DNA from: Elusimicrobiaceae bacterium | Lineage (GTDB): Bacteria; Elusimicrobiota; Elusimicrobia; Elusimicrobiales; Elusimicrobiaceae | Assembly: GCA_017417005.1 (NCBI GenBank) | Contig: JAFQAA010000004.1 | Span: 1-33,646, forward strand | Direction: 5' to 3' | DNA: 33,646 nucleotides | In this document: piece after piece, positions 7,006-25,692 of the stretch | Numbering within the stretch: the first letter of the stretch is position 1 | Layout: each line of letters opens with the position of its first letter | Made by a program: the position numbers and the translations under genes | The notes under the pieces: model-generated | What the model was told of the DNA's origin: nothing | What the model saw: the letters and a program-made list of their open reading frames with translations, nothing else | The model's database searches: none

Positions 7006-7042
7006 AAAAACCTTTCCTTGATAATACAAGGAAAGGTTTTTT
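7006..7042 (+). terminator. Intrinsic terminator after rho
   Basis: A perfect 15-bp inverted repeat, AAAAACCTTTCCTTG (7006-7020) and its complement (7027-7041), with a 6-base loop and a T-run in the 3' arm. It sits 21 nt after the rho stop and separates rho from the lol operon. The A-tract upstream would also allow termination on the opposite strand. Confidence 0.9.
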
Positions 7043-18985: not shown

Positions 18986-20677
18986 ATGAAATTAACAGAA
19001 TATTATTTACCAACTTTAAAAGAAGCCCCTAAAGATGCAGATATTGTTTCTGCTAAACTTATGATCCGCGCAGGGCTTATACGCAAGACGGCAAGCGGTA
19101 TTTATGAGTGGTTGCCGCTTGGTATGAAAATCTTAAAGAAAATTGAAAATATTATCCGCGAAGAATTTAATAAAGAAGGCGCGCTTGAAGTGTGGTTGCC
19201 GATAGTCCAACCGGCGGAACTTTGGCAAAAAAGCGGCAGGTGGGATTTTTACGGAAGAGAATTACTCCGTATTAAAGATAGAAAAAAAGCAGATTTTTGT
19301 ATTGCCCCAACGGCTGAAGAAGTTATTACGGATTTAGTTAAAAAAGATGTTTCTTCTTATAAACAACTGCCTGTTTGCTTGTATCAGTTTGGCACGAAAT
19401 TTAGAGATGAAATTCGCCCGCGCTTTGGCGTTATGCGCGCAAGAGAGTTTTATATGGCAGATGCTTATTCTTTTGCTTCAACTGAAGAGCAGGCAAATAC
19501 CTGGTATCAAAAAATGAAAGATTCTTATATCAGAATTTTTGAAAGGTGCGGTTTGAAATTTAGACCTGTGGAAGCAGATACCGGCACAATCGGCGGTAAT
19601 TTTTCCCATGAGTTTATGGTGCTTGCTGATACCGGCGAAGATGAAATTTCCGTCTGCCCTTGCGGTTATAGCGCAAATACGGAAAAGACCGAAATTGCTA
19701 TTCCCGAACAAAAAACAGGCGAGTTTTTAGAATTAAAAGAAGTTTCTACCCCAAACAAAAAAACTATAAAAGAAGTTTCCGATTTCTTAAAAATTGCACC
19801 TGAAAACTTTATTAAACTGCTTGTTTATAAAGCAGACGGCGCGCCTGTTATTGTTTTAATGCGCGGCGAAGATGAGTTAAACGAAATTAAACTTAGAAAA
19901 TTCTTAAATGCCCGTGAAGTTTGCCAAGCAACTGAGGAAGAATACACCCAAATAACCTCTAGCCCGGTTGGCTTTGCAGGTCCTGTTTCCTTAAAAAATA
20001 AAGGGCTAAAAATTATTGCCGATAATTATGTTAAAACAATTTTAAACGGCGTTTGTGGTGCAAGCAAACAAGATACCCATTTAGTAAATGTTAATCTTGA
20101 ACGCGACTATAAAGTTGAAACTTTTGCTGATTTAAAACTTGCTTCCCTTGGCGACAGATGCCCAAAATGCAACCAAGAGTTTACTTTTAAACGCGGTATT
20201 GAAGTTGGCCATATTTTTAAACTTGGCACAAAATATTCTAGCGCAATGAAAGCAGAGTTTTTAGACGAAAACCAAAAAGCAAAACCTATGATTATGGGTT
20301 GCTACGGCATTGGCGTAAGCCGTGTTTTAGCTGCTGCTATTGAGCAAAACCACGACGACTTTGGCCCTATTTGGACGCGCGCCCTTAGTCCCTTTGATAT
20401 TGAATTAATTAGTTTAGATTCTGAGGGCGAAGTTAAACAAAAAGCAGACGCGCTTTACGCTAACTTACAAGCCAAAGGTTTTGATGTTTTATATGATGAT
20501 AGAAACGAACGCCCGGGCATTAAATTTAAAGATGCCGATTTAGTTGGCGTGCCGCACCGCTTAATTGTGGGTAAAAAACTTTTGCCCGAAGGTAAAATTG
20601 AATATAAAAACAGAGCCACCGGCCAAAGTGAAGTTTGGACGCTTGCCGAACTGGAAGAAAAACTAAAAAACATTTAG
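18986..20677 (+). CDS. proS: Prolyl-tRNA synthetase (bacterial type with editing domain)
   Basis: Class II synthetase that charges tRNA-Pro. The 563-aa protein has the standard N-terminus (MKLTEYYLPTLKEAPKDADI and RAGLIRKTASGIYEWLPLG), motif 2 KFRDEIRPRFGVMRAREFYM, the inserted editing domain (about residues 225-405) that removes alanine from tRNA-Pro, motif 3 MGCYGIGVSRVLAAAIEQ, and the C-terminal anticodon-binding domain (DVLYDDRNERPGIKFKDADL). A small ribosome site (AAGGA) sits inside the end of ispG; the intergenic gap is one base. It ends the cdsA-proS run and is closed by a bidirectional terminator. Confidence 0.97.
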   Translation: MKLTEYYLPTLKEAPKDADIVSAKLMIRAGLIRKTASGIYEWLPLGMKILKKIENIIREEFNKEGALEVWLPIVQPAELWQKSGRWDFYGRELLRIKDRKKADFCIAPTAEEVITDLVKKDVSSYKQLPVCLYQFGTKFRDEIRPRFGVMRAREFYMADAYSFASTEEQANTWYQKMKDSYIRIFERCGLKFRPVEADTGTIGGNFSHEFMVLADTGEDEISVCPCGYSANTEKTEIAIPEQKTGEFLELKEVSTPNKKTIKEVSDFLKIAPENFIKLLVYKADGAPVIVLMRGEDELNEIKLRKFLNAREVCQATEEEYTQITSSPVGFAGPVSLKNKGLKIIADNYVKTILNGVCGASKQDTHLVNVNLERDYKVETFADLKLASLGDRCPKCNQEFTFKRGIEVGHIFKLGTKYSSAMKAEFLDENQKAKPMIMGCYGIGVSRVLAAAIEQNHDDFGPIWTRALSPFDIELISLDSEGEVKQKADALYANLQAKGFDVLYDDRNERPGIKFKDADLVGVPHRLIVGKKLLPEGKIEYKNRATGQSEVWTLAELEEKLKNI

Positions 20678-20698
20678 TTTTTATAAACATAATAAATA

Positions 20699-20731
20699 AA
20701 AAATCCCCGATATTTTATATCGGGGATTTTT
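20699..20731 (+). terminator. Bidirectional intrinsic terminator between proS and ankyrin gene
   Basis: A 15-bp perfect inverted repeat with ATCCCCGATAT as core (20699-20713 and 20717-20731), a 3-base loop and A/T tracts on both sides. It can end transcription of proS from the left and of the convergent ankyrin gene from the right. Confidence 0.92.
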
Positions 20732-21485: not shown

Positions 21486-21511
21486 TTAGGCCTATTTTTA
21501 GGTGGGCCTAA
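21486..21511. repeat. TAGGCC-type inverted repeat cluster in the divergent gap
   Basis: TTAGGCC (21486-21492) and GGCCTAA (21505-21511) form a 7-bp inverted repeat; TAGGCCTA at 21487-21494 is itself a palindrome and GGGCCTA recurs at 21504-21510 and 21512-21518. It lies between the divergent promoters of the ankyrin gene and rimP. Function is unknown; a regulator-binding site is possible. Confidence 0.5.
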
Positions 21512-21530
21512 GGGCCTAGTATAATTGAAC

Positions 21531-21560
21531 TTGCGTTTGGGTTTACTTATATGTTATAAT
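21531..21560 (+). promoter_or_regulatory. Strong promoter of the rimP-nusA-infB operon
   Basis: TTGCGT (21531-21536), 18-base spacer, perfect TATAAT (21555-21560) preceded by TG one base upstream, an extended -10 element. Start would be near 21567, giving a leader of about 60 nt occupied mostly by the hairpin at 21582-21605. Confidence 0.7.
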
Positions 21561-21581
21561 AAAAGCATCTTAATTAATATT

Positions 21582-21613
21582 AAGCGACTTGGAAACAAGT
21601 CGCTTTTGTTTTG
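21582..21613 (+). terminator. Leader hairpin with GAAA tetraloop and T-run (probable attenuator)
   Basis: AAGCGACTTG (21582-21591) and CAAGTCGCTT (21596-21605) form a perfect 10-bp stem closed by a GAAA (GNRA-type) tetraloop, followed by TTTTGTTTT. It lies downstream of the operon promoter and about 20 nt before the rimP ATG, so it sits in the leader RNA. It has the form of an intrinsic terminator and could provide attenuation, possibly by NusA itself as known for the B. subtilis nusA operon. The regulator is inference. Confidence 0.75.
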
Positions 21614-21626
21614 AAGGTGGTGTTTT

Positions 21627-22082
21627 ATGAACAAAAATCAAATGGAAGAAGTCGTCGCAGTTGCTCTTGAAAAACAGGGCTATGAACTTGTGGATTTGAT
21701 TATTCAGGCCCATGGCTCCAAGAAATTACTTCAGTTCTTTGTTGATAAAGAGGGCGGCGTAAATCTTGGCGATTGCGAAACTTTGACAGATAAAATTGAT
21801 TCCATTATTACTATGGAAAATTTGCTTGACGGGGGATATATTTTGGAAGTTTCTTCTCCGGGTATTAAGCGCGTTCTAAAGAAACCAGCCCATTTTAAAA
21901 AGTTTATTGGCGAAAGAGCAAGAATTTTTACCAAACAACCTATTGAAAATAGAGCCACTTTTACCGGCCTTATTGAAGAAGCCGATGATAATAAAATCGT
22001 GCTTTTTGACGGCACAACCAAATTTAACTTCAAATATGAAGATATTAAAAAAGCAAATCTTGACCCTGTGGTTGAGTTTTAA
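21627..22082 (+). CDS. rimP: Ribosome maturation factor RimP
   Basis: Cytoplasmic factor needed for assembly of the 30S subunit. The 151-aa protein has the alpha/beta N-terminal domain (MEEVVAVALEKQGYELVDL, LLQFFVDKEGGVNLGDCETL, YILEVSSPGIKRVLKKPAHF) and the C-terminal SH3-like barrel (FTGLIEEADDNKIVLFDG). The SSPG(I/L)xRxL motif is characteristic. GAAGGTGG lies before the ATG. It opens the classic rimP-nusA-infB operon, 15 nt before nusA. Confidence 0.95.
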   Translation: MNKNQMEEVVAVALEKQGYELVDLIIQAHGSKKLLQFFVDKEGGVNLGDCETLTDKIDSIITMENLLDGGYILEVSSPGIKRVLKKPAHFKKFIGERARIFTKQPIENRATFTGLIEEADDNKIVLFDGTTKFNFKYEDIKKANLDPVVEF

Positions 22083-22097
22083 GGAGAACTAAATTAT

Positions 22098-23465
22098 ATG
22101 CAAAATAAAGACTTAATTTTTGCCCTTGAAAGTTTAGAAAGGGAAAAGAATATCACAAGGGAAGATACCCTAAAAACTATTGAAGATGCCCTCGTTTCCG
22201 CTTTGAGAAAGAATTTAGGCAGAAATGCCCTTCTTTCCGCTCATGTGGATTTGGAGGCCGGCTCTATTGAGGCTTACCAAACTTTAGCTGTTGTGGAAGA
22301 AGTTTCCAACCCGGAAGTTGAAATTTCTTTAGAAGAAGCAAAACTTATTGATCCAAAAGCCAAAATCGGTAAGGATGTTATAAAGACTTTGGAAGTAAGC
22401 GATTTTTCAAGAATTGCCGCCCAAATTGCAAAACAAGTTCTTATTCAAAAAATACGCGGTATTGAAAGGGATAACCTTTATAAAGAATTTAAACCTAGAG
22501 AAGGCGAAATTGTAACAGGCCTTGTGCGCAGGTTTTCCGATAGGGATATAATTGTTGATTTAGGTAAAACAGAAGCCATATTTCCCTATTGCGAACAAAT
22601 CAGAAAAGAACACTTTACCCATGGTAGCAGAATTAAGGCCGTTATTGAGAAGGTTTTATGTCCTGCAGATTTGCCAACTATCAAAAATGACTCCGTTTTA
22701 AACCGCTATAAATCTGCCGCTTTAAAATTGGATAAAGGACAAAGAGGGCCTTACATTATACTTTCAAGAACTTCGCCTACCTTCTTAAAAGAACTTATGA
22801 AAGTTGAAATACCTGAGTTAAGCGATAATATTATTGAAATTAAAGGCATTTACAGAGATCCTGGATTTAGAGCAAAAGTTATTGTAAAAAGCAATGATAA
22901 CAATGTTGACCCTATTGGCACTTGTGTCGGTATGAGAGGCATTAGAATTAGAGCAGTAACAGGCGAACTTGCCGGTGAAAAAATTGACCTTATTAATTAC
23001 AGCGATGATGTTTCCACAACTATTATGAATGCTTTATCTCCTGCTAAGGTTTTATCTGTTCGCATAGTTGATGTTCAGGCCAAAAAGGCTTTAGTTATCG
23101 TTCCTGATGACCAGCTTGCAATTGCCATAGGCAGAGATTGGCAAAATGTTAATCTCGCTTCTAAAGTAAGTGGCTGGGAAATTGAAGTAAAGAGTGAAAG
23201 CCAAAAGAATCAAGAAGGTGCAGAGGCCGCCGCTCTTGTTAAAAATGCTTTAGCGGATGTTCCAGGGATTGGACCAAAACTTGCGGAAGTTTTAACAAAA
23301 GCAGGTTTTGATTCTGTTGAGAAAATTGCTAAATTAAATCCGGAACATTTGGCAACTTTACAGGGCGTTGGCGAAAAAACCGCCCAAAAAATCATAGACG
23401 GCGCTAAACAATATTTAGAGTCCAATGCGGAGGCAGAAAATGACAATAACCAAGAAAACAAGTAA
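22098..23465 (+). CDS. nusA: Transcription elongation/termination factor NusA
   Basis: Binds RNA polymerase and nascent RNA to control pausing, termination and antitermination. The 455-aa protein has the N-terminal polymerase-binding domain (1-130), an S1 domain (about 132-225), KH1 with the GMRG loop (VGMRGIRIRAVTGEL), KH2, and one C-terminal helix-hairpin-helix acidic repeat (about 385-440, VPGIGPKLAEVLTKAGF and LQGVGEKTAQKI). Two oddities: about 25 extra residues (188-213) between two S1 strands where most NusA have a short turn, and a KH2 loop G345-R-D-W348 in place of the usual GxxG (IGRDWQNVNLASK). AAGGAG precedes the ATG. It overlaps infB by 26 nt. Confidence 0.95.
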   Translation: MQNKDLIFALESLEREKNITREDTLKTIEDALVSALRKNLGRNALLSAHVDLEAGSIEAYQTLAVVEEVSNPEVEISLEEAKLIDPKAKIGKDVIKTLEVSDFSRIAAQIAKQVLIQKIRGIERDNLYKEFKPREGEIVTGLVRRFSDRDIIVDLGKTEAIFPYCEQIRKEHFTHGSRIKAVIEKVLCPADLPTIKNDSVLNRYKSAALKLDKGQRGPYIILSRTSPTFLKELMKVEIPELSDNIIEIKGIYRDPGFRAKVIVKSNDNNVDPIGTCVGMRGIRIRAVTGELAGEKIDLINYSDDVSTTIMNALSPAKVLSVRIVDVQAKKALVIVPDDQLAIAIGRDWQNVNLASKVSGWEIEVKSESQKNQEGAEAAALVKNALADVPGIGPKLAEVLTKAGFDSVEKIAKLNPEHLATLQGVGEKTAQKIIDGAKQYLESNAEAENDNNQENK

Positions 23466-25644
23466 GGATCAGGAAGAGCCTAAAAAGAAAACTGCTACCC
23501 GTAAAACAACGGCTAAAAAAACAACAACGGCAAAAAAAACTACCGCTAAAAAACCGGCAGCAAAAAAAACTACAACTAAAAAAGTAGTTAAGAAGGTTGC
23601 CGCTAAAACAATTAAGGAAGAAGAAGCTAAACAGGAAGTAAAAGAAGTTAGAACTCAAGAACAGAGAAAAACGGCGGGACATACGGAATTTAAGGCGCCA
23701 ATTAAAACAGAACCTGTTAATATTGCGCCTAAAGAGCAGGAAAATAAACTAGAACCCCAAGTTGCCCCTATTGAAAATAAGGCGCTAAATAATCAAGTTC
23801 AAAGACACAATATTCCTGCTAAAGAAGAACTCAAAAAACCGGAAGTTAAGGCAGAGCAAAAAGTAGCCCCGCAACCAGCCCAGCCCCAGCAAAAAGTTAT
23901 TAAAATTCTCGGTCAGCCGACAATTAAAGAACTTGCCGAGAAAATGGATATCAAAATAAATGACTTTATTAAAAAACTTATGGGTATGGGTATTTTTGCT
24001 ACTATTAACCAGCGCCTTGAAACGGATATGATTGAACTTGTAGCTGCCGAGTGCGGTTTTAAAACCGAAATGATTAGCGAATTTGCCCACGAGGAACTTG
24101 TTAGCCAAGTGCAAGAAGAAGATGACCCTAAAGATTTGGTTCCAAGAGCACCGGTCGTTACCATTATGGGACATGTGGACCACGGCAAGACAAGTTTGCT
24201 TGACGCAATAAGACACTCTAATGTTGTGGCGGGTGAATTTGGCGCAATTACCCAGCATATTGGTGCTTACAGAGTAAAAACGCCAAAAGGTTATATATCT
24301 TTCTTAGATACTCCTGGACACGAAGCGTTTACCGCTATGCGTGCGCGCGGTGCACAAGCTACCGATATTGTAGTATTAGTTGTTTCTGCAACAGATGGCA
24401 TTATGCCGCAGACTATTGAGGCTATGAACCACGCAAAAAGCGCAGGAGCGCCTATTATTGTAGCGGTAAATAAAATTGATTTGCCAGGGGCAAACCCTGA
24501 TAAAATTAAACAAGATCTTGCTTCCCGCGGACTTGTGCCTGAAGAGTGGCAGGGCGATACAATATTTGTTGAAATTTCCGCCAAAAAAAGAATCAATATT
24601 GATAAACTTTTGGAAATGATTGCCTTGCAGGCCGAAATGATGGAACTTAAAGCAAATCCAAACAGAAGTGGCGTTGGCGTTATTTTGGAAAGTAAACGCG
24701 ATAATAAACGCGGGGTTGTGGCAACGGTTTTGGTGCAAAAAGGCACAATCCATGTTGGAGATCCGTTTATTGTAGGCACGACTTACGGCAAAATAAGAGC
24801 TTTAATTGACGAGCACGGCAAACGCTTACCTTCAATTGGGCCTTCCGTGCCGGCCGAAATTTTGGGTATTAATGGTGAGCCTCCTTCTGTCGGTGATACT
24901 TTAGTTATTGCTTCAAGCGAAAAAGAGGCCAAACATATTGCCGAAAAAAGAAAACTTGCCCATAAGGAAGAAAGAATTGCCCACCAAAAGCATGTTTCTC
25001 TTACCAATATTAAGAGCGATAAAGTAAAAGAACTTGCTATTATTCTTAAAGCAGATGTGCAAGGTTCTATTGAAGCAATTAAAGATGCTATTTTAAGAAC
25101 TCCGACAGAAGAAGTAGAAGTGAAAATTATCCACTCTGCTGCCGGTAATGTTAACGAGTCGGATTTGCTGCTTGCAAAAGCTAGCAATGCCGTTATAATT
25201 GCGTTTAATGTTGATACGGATGAATCTACTAAAGAAGAAGCCCAAAGAGAAGGCATTGAAATACGCACTTATAATATCATCTTTGAACTTTTAGAAGATC
25301 TTCGCGCTGCAATGGAAGGTTTGCTTGAACCCGATATTGTAGAAGAAGTGGTCGGTAAGGCAATAGTTCGCCAAGTCTTTGACCTTAGCAGCGGTTTTGT
25401 TGCCGGGTGCTATGTGGAAGAAGGTAAACTTGTGCGCAACTACGAGGTTCGCATTTTACGCGCCGGAGAGATACTTTATAAAGGTAAAATTTCCGGTTTA
25501 AAGCGTTTTAAAGATGATGTAAAAGAAGTTGAAAAAGGTTATGAATGCGGCGTTTTGGTAGAAGGTTTTAAAAAGACCCAACCTGGCGATGTGGTAGAGT
25601 GTTTCCAAAAAAAGACTATCACCCGCAGAATAGCCAAAATTTAA
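23440..25644 (+). CDS. infB: Translation initiation factor IF-2
   Basis: GTPase that brings initiator tRNA to the 30S subunit and promotes subunit joining. The ATG at 23440 is chosen because GGAGG lies 7 bases before it, inside the end of nusA; another ATG at 23425 would place that site inside the gene. The 734-aa protein starts with a Lys/Thr/Ala-rich tail (about 1-50, with KKTTAKK repeats), then the IF2 N-domain (TIKELAEKMDIKINDFIKKL), the G domain with GHVDHGKTSLLDAIR (G244), DTPGHEAF and NKIDLPGANPD, and the C-terminal barrels ending in the fMet-tRNA-binding domain. The usual followers rbfA and truB are absent; a terminator follows instead. Confidence 0.97.
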   Translation: MTITKKTSKDQEEPKKKTATRKTTAKKTTTAKKTTAKKPAAKKTTTKKVVKKVAAKTIKEEEAKQEVKEVRTQEQRKTAGHTEFKAPIKTEPVNIAPKEQENKLEPQVAPIENKALNNQVQRHNIPAKEELKKPEVKAEQKVAPQPAQPQQKVIKILGQPTIKELAEKMDIKINDFIKKLMGMGIFATINQRLETDMIELVAAECGFKTEMISEFAHEELVSQVQEEDDPKDLVPRAPVVTIMGHVDHGKTSLLDAIRHSNVVAGEFGAITQHIGAYRVKTPKGYISFLDTPGHEAFTAMRARGAQATDIVVLVVSATDGIMPQTIEAMNHAKSAGAPIIVAVNKIDLPGANPDKIKQDLASRGLVPEEWQGDTIFVEISAKKRINIDKLLEMIALQAEMMELKANPNRSGVGVILESKRDNKRGVVATVLVQKGTIHVGDPFIVGTTYGKIRALIDEHGKRLPSIGPSVPAEILGINGEPPSVGDTLVIASSEKEAKHIAEKRKLAHKEERIAHQKHVSLTNIKSDKVKELAIILKADVQGSIEAIKDAILRTPTEEVEVKIIHSAAGNVNESDLLLAKASNAVIIAFNVDTDESTKEEAQREGIEIRTYNIIFELLEDLRAAMEGLLEPDIVEEVVGKAIVRQVFDLSSGFVAGCYVEEGKLVRNYEVRILRAGEILYKGKISGLKRFKDDVKEVEKGYECGVLVEGFKKTQPGDVVECFQKKTITRRIAKI

Positions 25645-25656
25645 ACTTGAAAAGTA

Positions 25657-25692
25657 AAAAAATACCCCTCTAAATTTAGAGGGGTATTTTTT
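25657..25692. terminator. Bidirectional terminator between infB and SEC-C gene
   Basis: A perfect 36-base palindrome (25657-25692), arms reading through ATACCCCTCTAAA, with A-tract and T-tract at its ends. It serves infB from the left and the convergent minus-strand cluster from the right; the hairpin loop will use the central AT bases. Confidence 0.92.

Follow-up and report, generated by a model that had tools for sequence, protein, structure and literature searches.

The rimP-nusA-infB operon of an Elusimicrobiaceae bacterium is preceded by a hairpin and T tract which, with a probability of roughly two in three, form a promoter-proximal attenuator whose read-through is set by NusA, the second product of the operon. 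The hairpin was analysed in the window (the whole stretch of DNA, 33,646 nucleotides long) and upstream of rimP in three families of related genomes, and is a real, conserved and probably functional element.

The rimP-nusA-infB leader in the window

Read from the sequence, the locus at 21531-21626 comprises an extended -10 promoter and a leader some 60 nt long, in which a hairpin and TTTTGTTTT precede the rimP ribosome site. An earlier sequence-only reading had described the same extended -10, the perfect 10-bp stem with GAAA loop and the T-rich run just before the ribosome site, all of which are borne out, and its leader length of about 60 nt agrees with a start site inferred 7 nt past the -10. 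The features are as follows.

21531..21536, + strand: -35-like TTGCGT, weak (sequence reading)
21552..21560, + strand: extended -10, TG-T-TATAAT (sequence reading)
21567..21626, + strand: predicted 5' leader, about 60 nt (start site placed 7 nt past the -10)
21582..21605, + strand: predicted terminator hairpin, perfect 10-bp stem with GAAA loop (sequence, fold, covariation and covariance model R1, see below)
21604..21612, + strand: T tract TTTTGTTTT, interrupted by one G; its first two T are paired within the stem (sequence)
21614..21620, + strand: Shine-Dalgarno-like AAGGTGG (sequence reading)
21627..22082, + strand: rimP (ribosome maturation factor), which opens the operon; PF02576 and PF17384 above cut-off, ATG at 21627
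22098..23465, + strand: nusA, candidate trans-acting regulator; PF08529 and PF13184 above cut-off, C-terminal HhH domain
23425..25644, + strand: infB (IF-2); PF11987, PF00009 and PF04760 above cut-off, true start perhaps a few codons downstream
25657..25692, + strand: terminator downstream of infB that closes the operon, with a C-rich 5' arm, serving as control (terminator scan)

The stem consists of the 5' arm AAGCGACTTG (21582-21591) and the 3' arm CAAGTCGCTT (21596-21605), which enclose the loop (21592-21595), and 8 nt separate it from AAGGTGG. In the genus of the window the -35 is weak, matching 3-5 of 6 positions, and TTGACA is perfect in many leaders of a related genus. A pattern scan covering 81 non-identical leaders of the window's family (f1) scored the TG-extended -10 in 71. 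NusG is also encoded in the genome. The named relatives identified from NusA are Elusimicrobiota, many of them, judging by titles, Elusimicrobiaceae of animal guts. Imperfect inverted repeats around AGGCCTATTTTTAGGTGGGCCTAAGGGCCTAG are located at 21487-21521, between the rimP promoter and a divergent ankyrin-repeat gene; genome G006 carries a diverged version of these repeats, which are perhaps a candidate operator.

Folding of the leader was better than that of dinucleotide shuffles by 4 sd (z -4.03), with 2 of 200 shuffles equally good, and when the 60-nt leader was shuffled by mononucleotides 20,000 times, a perfect stem of at least 10 bp arose in 8 shuffles. Five other places in the window also carry such perfect stems, mostly near gene ends, and terminator-like sites between 15000 and 30000 are twofold commoner than in shuffles (34 versus 17.1). 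The window is AT-rich and stems of this type are fairly common in it, so the decisive criterion is conservation, and it is by being conserved with compensatory change that the hairpin stands above chance. A GC-containing stem followed immediately by a T tract is the anatomy of an intrinsic terminator. Folded so as to avoid the stem, 21567-21613 reaches at best -4.5 kcal/mol, far weaker than the -15.7 kcal/mol with it, and no competing antiterminator was found in the window.

Two perfect stems elsewhere in the window lie at gene ends. One, perfect over up to 15 bp, is located at 7006-7041 just past the end (6985) of a gene read from its ORF as rho-like, and is probably the 3' terminator of that gene. 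Another perfect 10-bp stem, at 20658-20682, overlaps the 3' end of a proS-like ORF, just before a terminator at 20699-20731.

Conservation and covariation of the hairpin

The region upstream of rimP was compared among relatives of f1 and of two other families, f2 and f10. Many of these leaders show, past the promoter, a hairpin whose stem reads GCGACUUG or GCGGCUUG. Model R1 was built from 57 distinct f1 segments including the window's own, so that the score of the window (50.7 bits) is high by construction. Ninety f1 genomes were examined, 11 of which, mostly incomplete assemblies, gave no rimP hit. Just upstream of rimP and on the same strand, R1 matched in at least 77 of the 79 genomes with rimP, at a median distance, among the matches listed, of 29 nt from the rimP protein match. 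The remaining two, from other genera, carry the hairpin according to a second model, R2, built without them; by both models combined, the hairpin is therefore present upstream of rimP in 79 of 79.

Thirty loci were inspected from each of the other families (out of 50 f2 and 53 f10 genomes with rimP), and in each family the hairpin was present in 29, the sole miss being cut off by a contig end. By pattern, 28 of the 30 f2 loci match GGUGGCUG...CAGCCGC or close variants followed by 7-8 T, and in one further f2 locus (L154, genome G246) the hairpin lies further upstream. Stems resembling GGYGRC...GYCRCC with a T tract were matched in 27 of the 30 f10 loci; L188, itself part of the model, and L205 also carry the hairpin. 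These patterns were written after the sequences had been read, so the counts confirm position and anatomy and are not a discovery. Loss of the hairpin was considered for G015 (L011) and G246 and rejected in both, as an insertion separates the hairpin from rimP, in G015 by 257 nt. The G015 insertion, about 200 nt long and rich in inverted repeats, has a comparable counterpart in L154.

Depending on the family, the stem reads GCGRCUUG, GGUGGC or GGCGGC. The loop is unconserved, its length varying between about 3 and 8 nt and its sequence taking many forms; the 'GNRA' character on which the sequence-only reading had put weight is thus incidental.

The f1 alignment contains 57 of the 58 distinct segments, the remaining one being a truncated row. 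Its structure comprises 13 pairs, of which the ten inner ones are standard throughout; 9 of the 13 have changed on both sides. None of 500 shuffles reached the observed value in any of five measures, although kinship among the sequences inflates such covariation counts. A three-family alignment of 44 of 63 segments has 9 pairs, 7 with changes on both sides, and is 97.2% paired, a percentage raised by the omission of 10 of 18 f2 and 9 of 29 f10 segments, which included rows with bulged or irregular stems. When the pairing was slid as a control, the paired fraction dropped to 33-51% (f1) and 22-65% (three families). The check that the earlier reading had itself proposed, conservation of the stem in relatives, hence came out in its favour, the stem being kept and covarying in f1, f2 and f10.

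A fixed place between promoter and rimP

A search of the window's own genome for the exact motif gave a single occurrence. The second place matched there by R1 is weak, with an E value of 0.017 versus 1.6e-10. Model R2 is unspecific, several genomes giving other matches at a similar score, so uniqueness within the genome is taken from the pattern search and R1. A -10 was scored in 134 of 136 leaders, and in these it was located 9-38 nt upstream of the core stem (14-31 nt in f1, 9-11 nt in f2 and 12-38 nt in f10). The hairpin keeps this place near the operon's own promoter although the upstream genes change.

This position bears on the idea that the hairpin terminates the upstream gene, or insulates the operon against read-through. 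A same-strand upstream gene is present in 26 of 53 judgeable f1 loci; in the other 27, including the window with its ankyrin-repeat gene, the upstream gene is divergent, and the hairpin cannot be its terminator. Considering also that proS has its own terminator at 20699-20731 and that the promoter of the operon itself precedes the hairpin, we regard this idea as practically untenable.

A translational operator, in which RimP, IF-2 or a ribosomal protein would bind the stem and block the ribosome site, accords with the conserved stem sequence and with a ribosome site as close as that of the window. The distance from stem to rimP is, however, variable, reaching the 257 nt of G015 and some 300 nt in G246. 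Pairing of the leader 5' end with the ribosome site, which would sequester the latter, was seen in the fold of the window, yet it was hardly above the control in 69 leaders (1.19 versus 0.89 with shuffled 5' ends), the window itself lying below it, and this candidate was rejected. A protein-bound translational operator is accordingly most improbable.

The stem of f2 begins at about +3 to +5, assuming a start 7 nt past the -10, and the predicted terminated RNA, little over 30 nt, consists of stem, loop and T tract. In the f2 loci L153-L182, promoter and terminator (TTGCTAATAT...GGTGGCTGAAGTTCAGCCGCTTTTTTTT) are nearly invariant and form a very short predicted attenuator.

The T tract and the stem sequence

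At least 4 T are found within 8 nt past the core in 136 of 136 scored leaders. The tract is interrupted in 17 of 81 f1 and 20 of 27 f10 leaders and in none of 28 from f2. It is poor in part of f1: in 34 of 81 leaders the 8 nt past the core contain no more than 4 T (e.g. GCTCTTTCC), and termination in these leaders may be weak. A hairpin that shields the 5' end of the mRNA against decay without terminating would suit f2 and part of f1, where the stem begins very close to the predicted 5' end, but protection needs no T tract, and a T tract stands directly past the stem in every scored leader; such a stabiliser is highly unlikely.

The leader hairpin was also compared with the hairpins that follow infB. 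Such hairpins were found at 46 of 61 infB ends (9 of 70 sources contained no infB end), and the comparison covers the 31 of 69 loci in which a simple scanner found both hairpins. The 3' hairpins have CCCC in the 5' arm in 28 of the 31, with a drifting sequence, and mostly combine a C-rich 5' arm with a G-rich 3' arm (CCCC...GGGG), a polarity opposite to that of the leader hairpin; in the 5' arm of the f1 leaders, G outnumbers C in 21 of 31 and is never outnumbered by it. In sequence, the leader stem varies less than the operon's 3' terminators, and in 23 of 31 genomes it is the weaker of the two hairpins. Being unlike the 3' terminators in kind, the leader stem is not the standard terminator of this genome.

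These data also speak to a fixed, unregulated attenuator, which would provide constant low read-through without sensing any factor. No sensor region exists, and the uninterrupted T tracts of f2 (28 of 28) can work free of factors. Such an attenuator needs no particular stem sequence, however, and yet the leader stem is the more uniform one; moreover, excerpts of PMC12288461, PMC2965389 and PMC4448216 report NusA feedback on this operon in other phyla. We therefore consider a fixed attenuator unlikely.

Alternatively, the hairpin might terminate at normal temperature and be melted in the cold by a CspA-family RNA chaperone. Antitermination by the CspA family acts on the nusA-infB operon of E. 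coli, and the genome analysed here carries a single gene with a cold-shock domain. A title in the reference list of PMC6511841 concerns antitermination by this family. On the other side, a GC-rich 10-bp stem is hard to melt, cold-shock control does not predict conservation of the stem sequence, and many of the relatives come, by their titles, from warm guts. This type of control is very unlikely.

Proposed attenuation through polymerase-bound NusA

The stem of f2, located 9-11 nt past the -10, leaves no room for an antiterminator, a leader peptide, a riboswitch or a Rho site. The statement of the sequence-only reading that no competing antiterminator is obvious thus holds for f2 as well as for the window, with its far weaker alternative fold. 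Since no sensor RNA fits, regulation would have to act on the terminator via the polymerase. The obvious factor is NusA, because it is encoded in the operon itself and because portions of PMC12288461 and PMC4448216 provide precedents from B. subtilis and S. agalactiae. The evidence thus favours attenuation through polymerase-bound factors, NusA first, and the interpretation offered by the sequence-only reading is supported.

In the proposed mechanism, RNA polymerase leaving the extended -10 promoter would make the hairpin within the first 40-50 nt, and part of the transcripts would end in the T tract ahead of rimP. The terminated fraction would be set by NusA, perhaps with NusG, bound to the polymerase at the RNA exit channel, where NusA would aid the hairpin and the interrupted T tract in terminating. 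Abundant NusA would lower expression of the operon, and when NusA is scarce the polymerase would pass.

According to a passage of PMC8060035, NusA/NusG-dependent terminators of B. subtilis have a distal T-tract interruption and/or a weak hairpin. In their interruption, the T tract of the window and most f10 tracts resemble NusA/NusG-dependent terminators, and TTGTTT in the window fits the NusG pause motif TTNTTT given in the same passage. The uninterrupted tracts in 28 of 28 f2 leaders predict a strong terminator that may work without NusA. Considering these f2 tracts together with the many poor tracts of f1, NusA dependence may vary between the families.

Comparison with known nusA-operon leaders

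Naville and Gautheret (2010, PMC2965389) found no predicted attenuator more widespread than the rimP-leader; they described its stem as conserved and lacking an antiterminator, and considered NusA its likely regulator. The element reported here resembles it in occupying the 5' leader of the same rimP-nusA-infB operon, in being a short predicted terminator with a G-leading 5' arm (GGYGGC in f2 and f10), a C-rich 3' arm and a T tract, and in having no antiterminator or larger conserved element. It differs in the signature GGGc...gCCC, since GGGC occurs in 0 of 31 f1 leader 5' arms; one f10 row (L212) of the 63 segments read has GGGC in the 5' arm. With the Rfam family RF01770 ('rimP', 102 positions), the gathering score of 47 bits was reached in none of 149 Elusimicrobiota genomes and, among 14 controls, only in E. 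coli. Sub-threshold matches to RF01770 were discarded; among those listed, none lay at a known rimP place, all being elsewhere in the genomes. Owing to the differing signature and the lack of an RF01770 match, the element was not filed in the rimP-leader family. The string 'Elusimicrob' is absent from the main text of PMC2965389, and a limited open-licence search of titles and the starts of abstracts yielded no paper recognised as describing the element in this phylum. Found across the phylum, the element is a variant in sequence of an attenuator type that is already known, ordinary in principle and new in lineage and sequence.

According to an excerpt of PMC12288461, B. subtilis NusA controls its own synthesis by stimulating termination in the leader of its operon; this precedent, invoked by the sequence-only reading, is in print. 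Feedback was demonstrated there, whereas in Elusimicrobiota we infer it, and the B. subtilis nusA leader is 180 nt long, by the figure in a passage of PMC2965389, compared with about 60 nt or less here. In S. agalactiae, a passage of PMC4448216 places termination upstream of the rimP-nusA operon, 31 nt past the start site, at a predicted intrinsic terminator. This leader shares the extreme shortness of f2, but belongs to a different phylum, and its termination was seen by RNA-seq while that of the present element is predicted. The E. coli metY-rimP-nusA-infB operon likewise has a short hairpin with a T tract, CTGGGCTTTAGGCCCTTTTTTT, directly before rimP, and this site is the only R2 match in the E. 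coli locus, at a non-significant 10.8 bits (E 6.2). The E. coli leader differs in also containing the tRNA gene metY, a second terminator and RNase III sites.

Implications

The role of NusA at terminators is not known to be strongly sequence-specific, so that this role leaves the conserved stem sequence unexplained. We tentatively suggest, as a possibility that is itself doubtful, that the stem is also a sequence-specific recognition site, a G-leading helix GYGRC...GYCGC read by the S1-KH surface of NusA or by RimP as the RNA emerges, the letters changing lineage by lineage with the reader. If so, the 'word' at this position would differ between phyla, being GGGc in Firmicutes and Gammaproteobacteria and GYGRC in Elusimicrobiota. 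Attenuation of rimP-nusA-infB would, by the reading preferred here, extend to a deep and hardly studied phylum, with direct evidence from covariation. Natural leaders in which the terminator is nearly the whole nascent RNA would offer a clean setting in which to study how polymerase-bound NusA might sense its own level without a sensor RNA.
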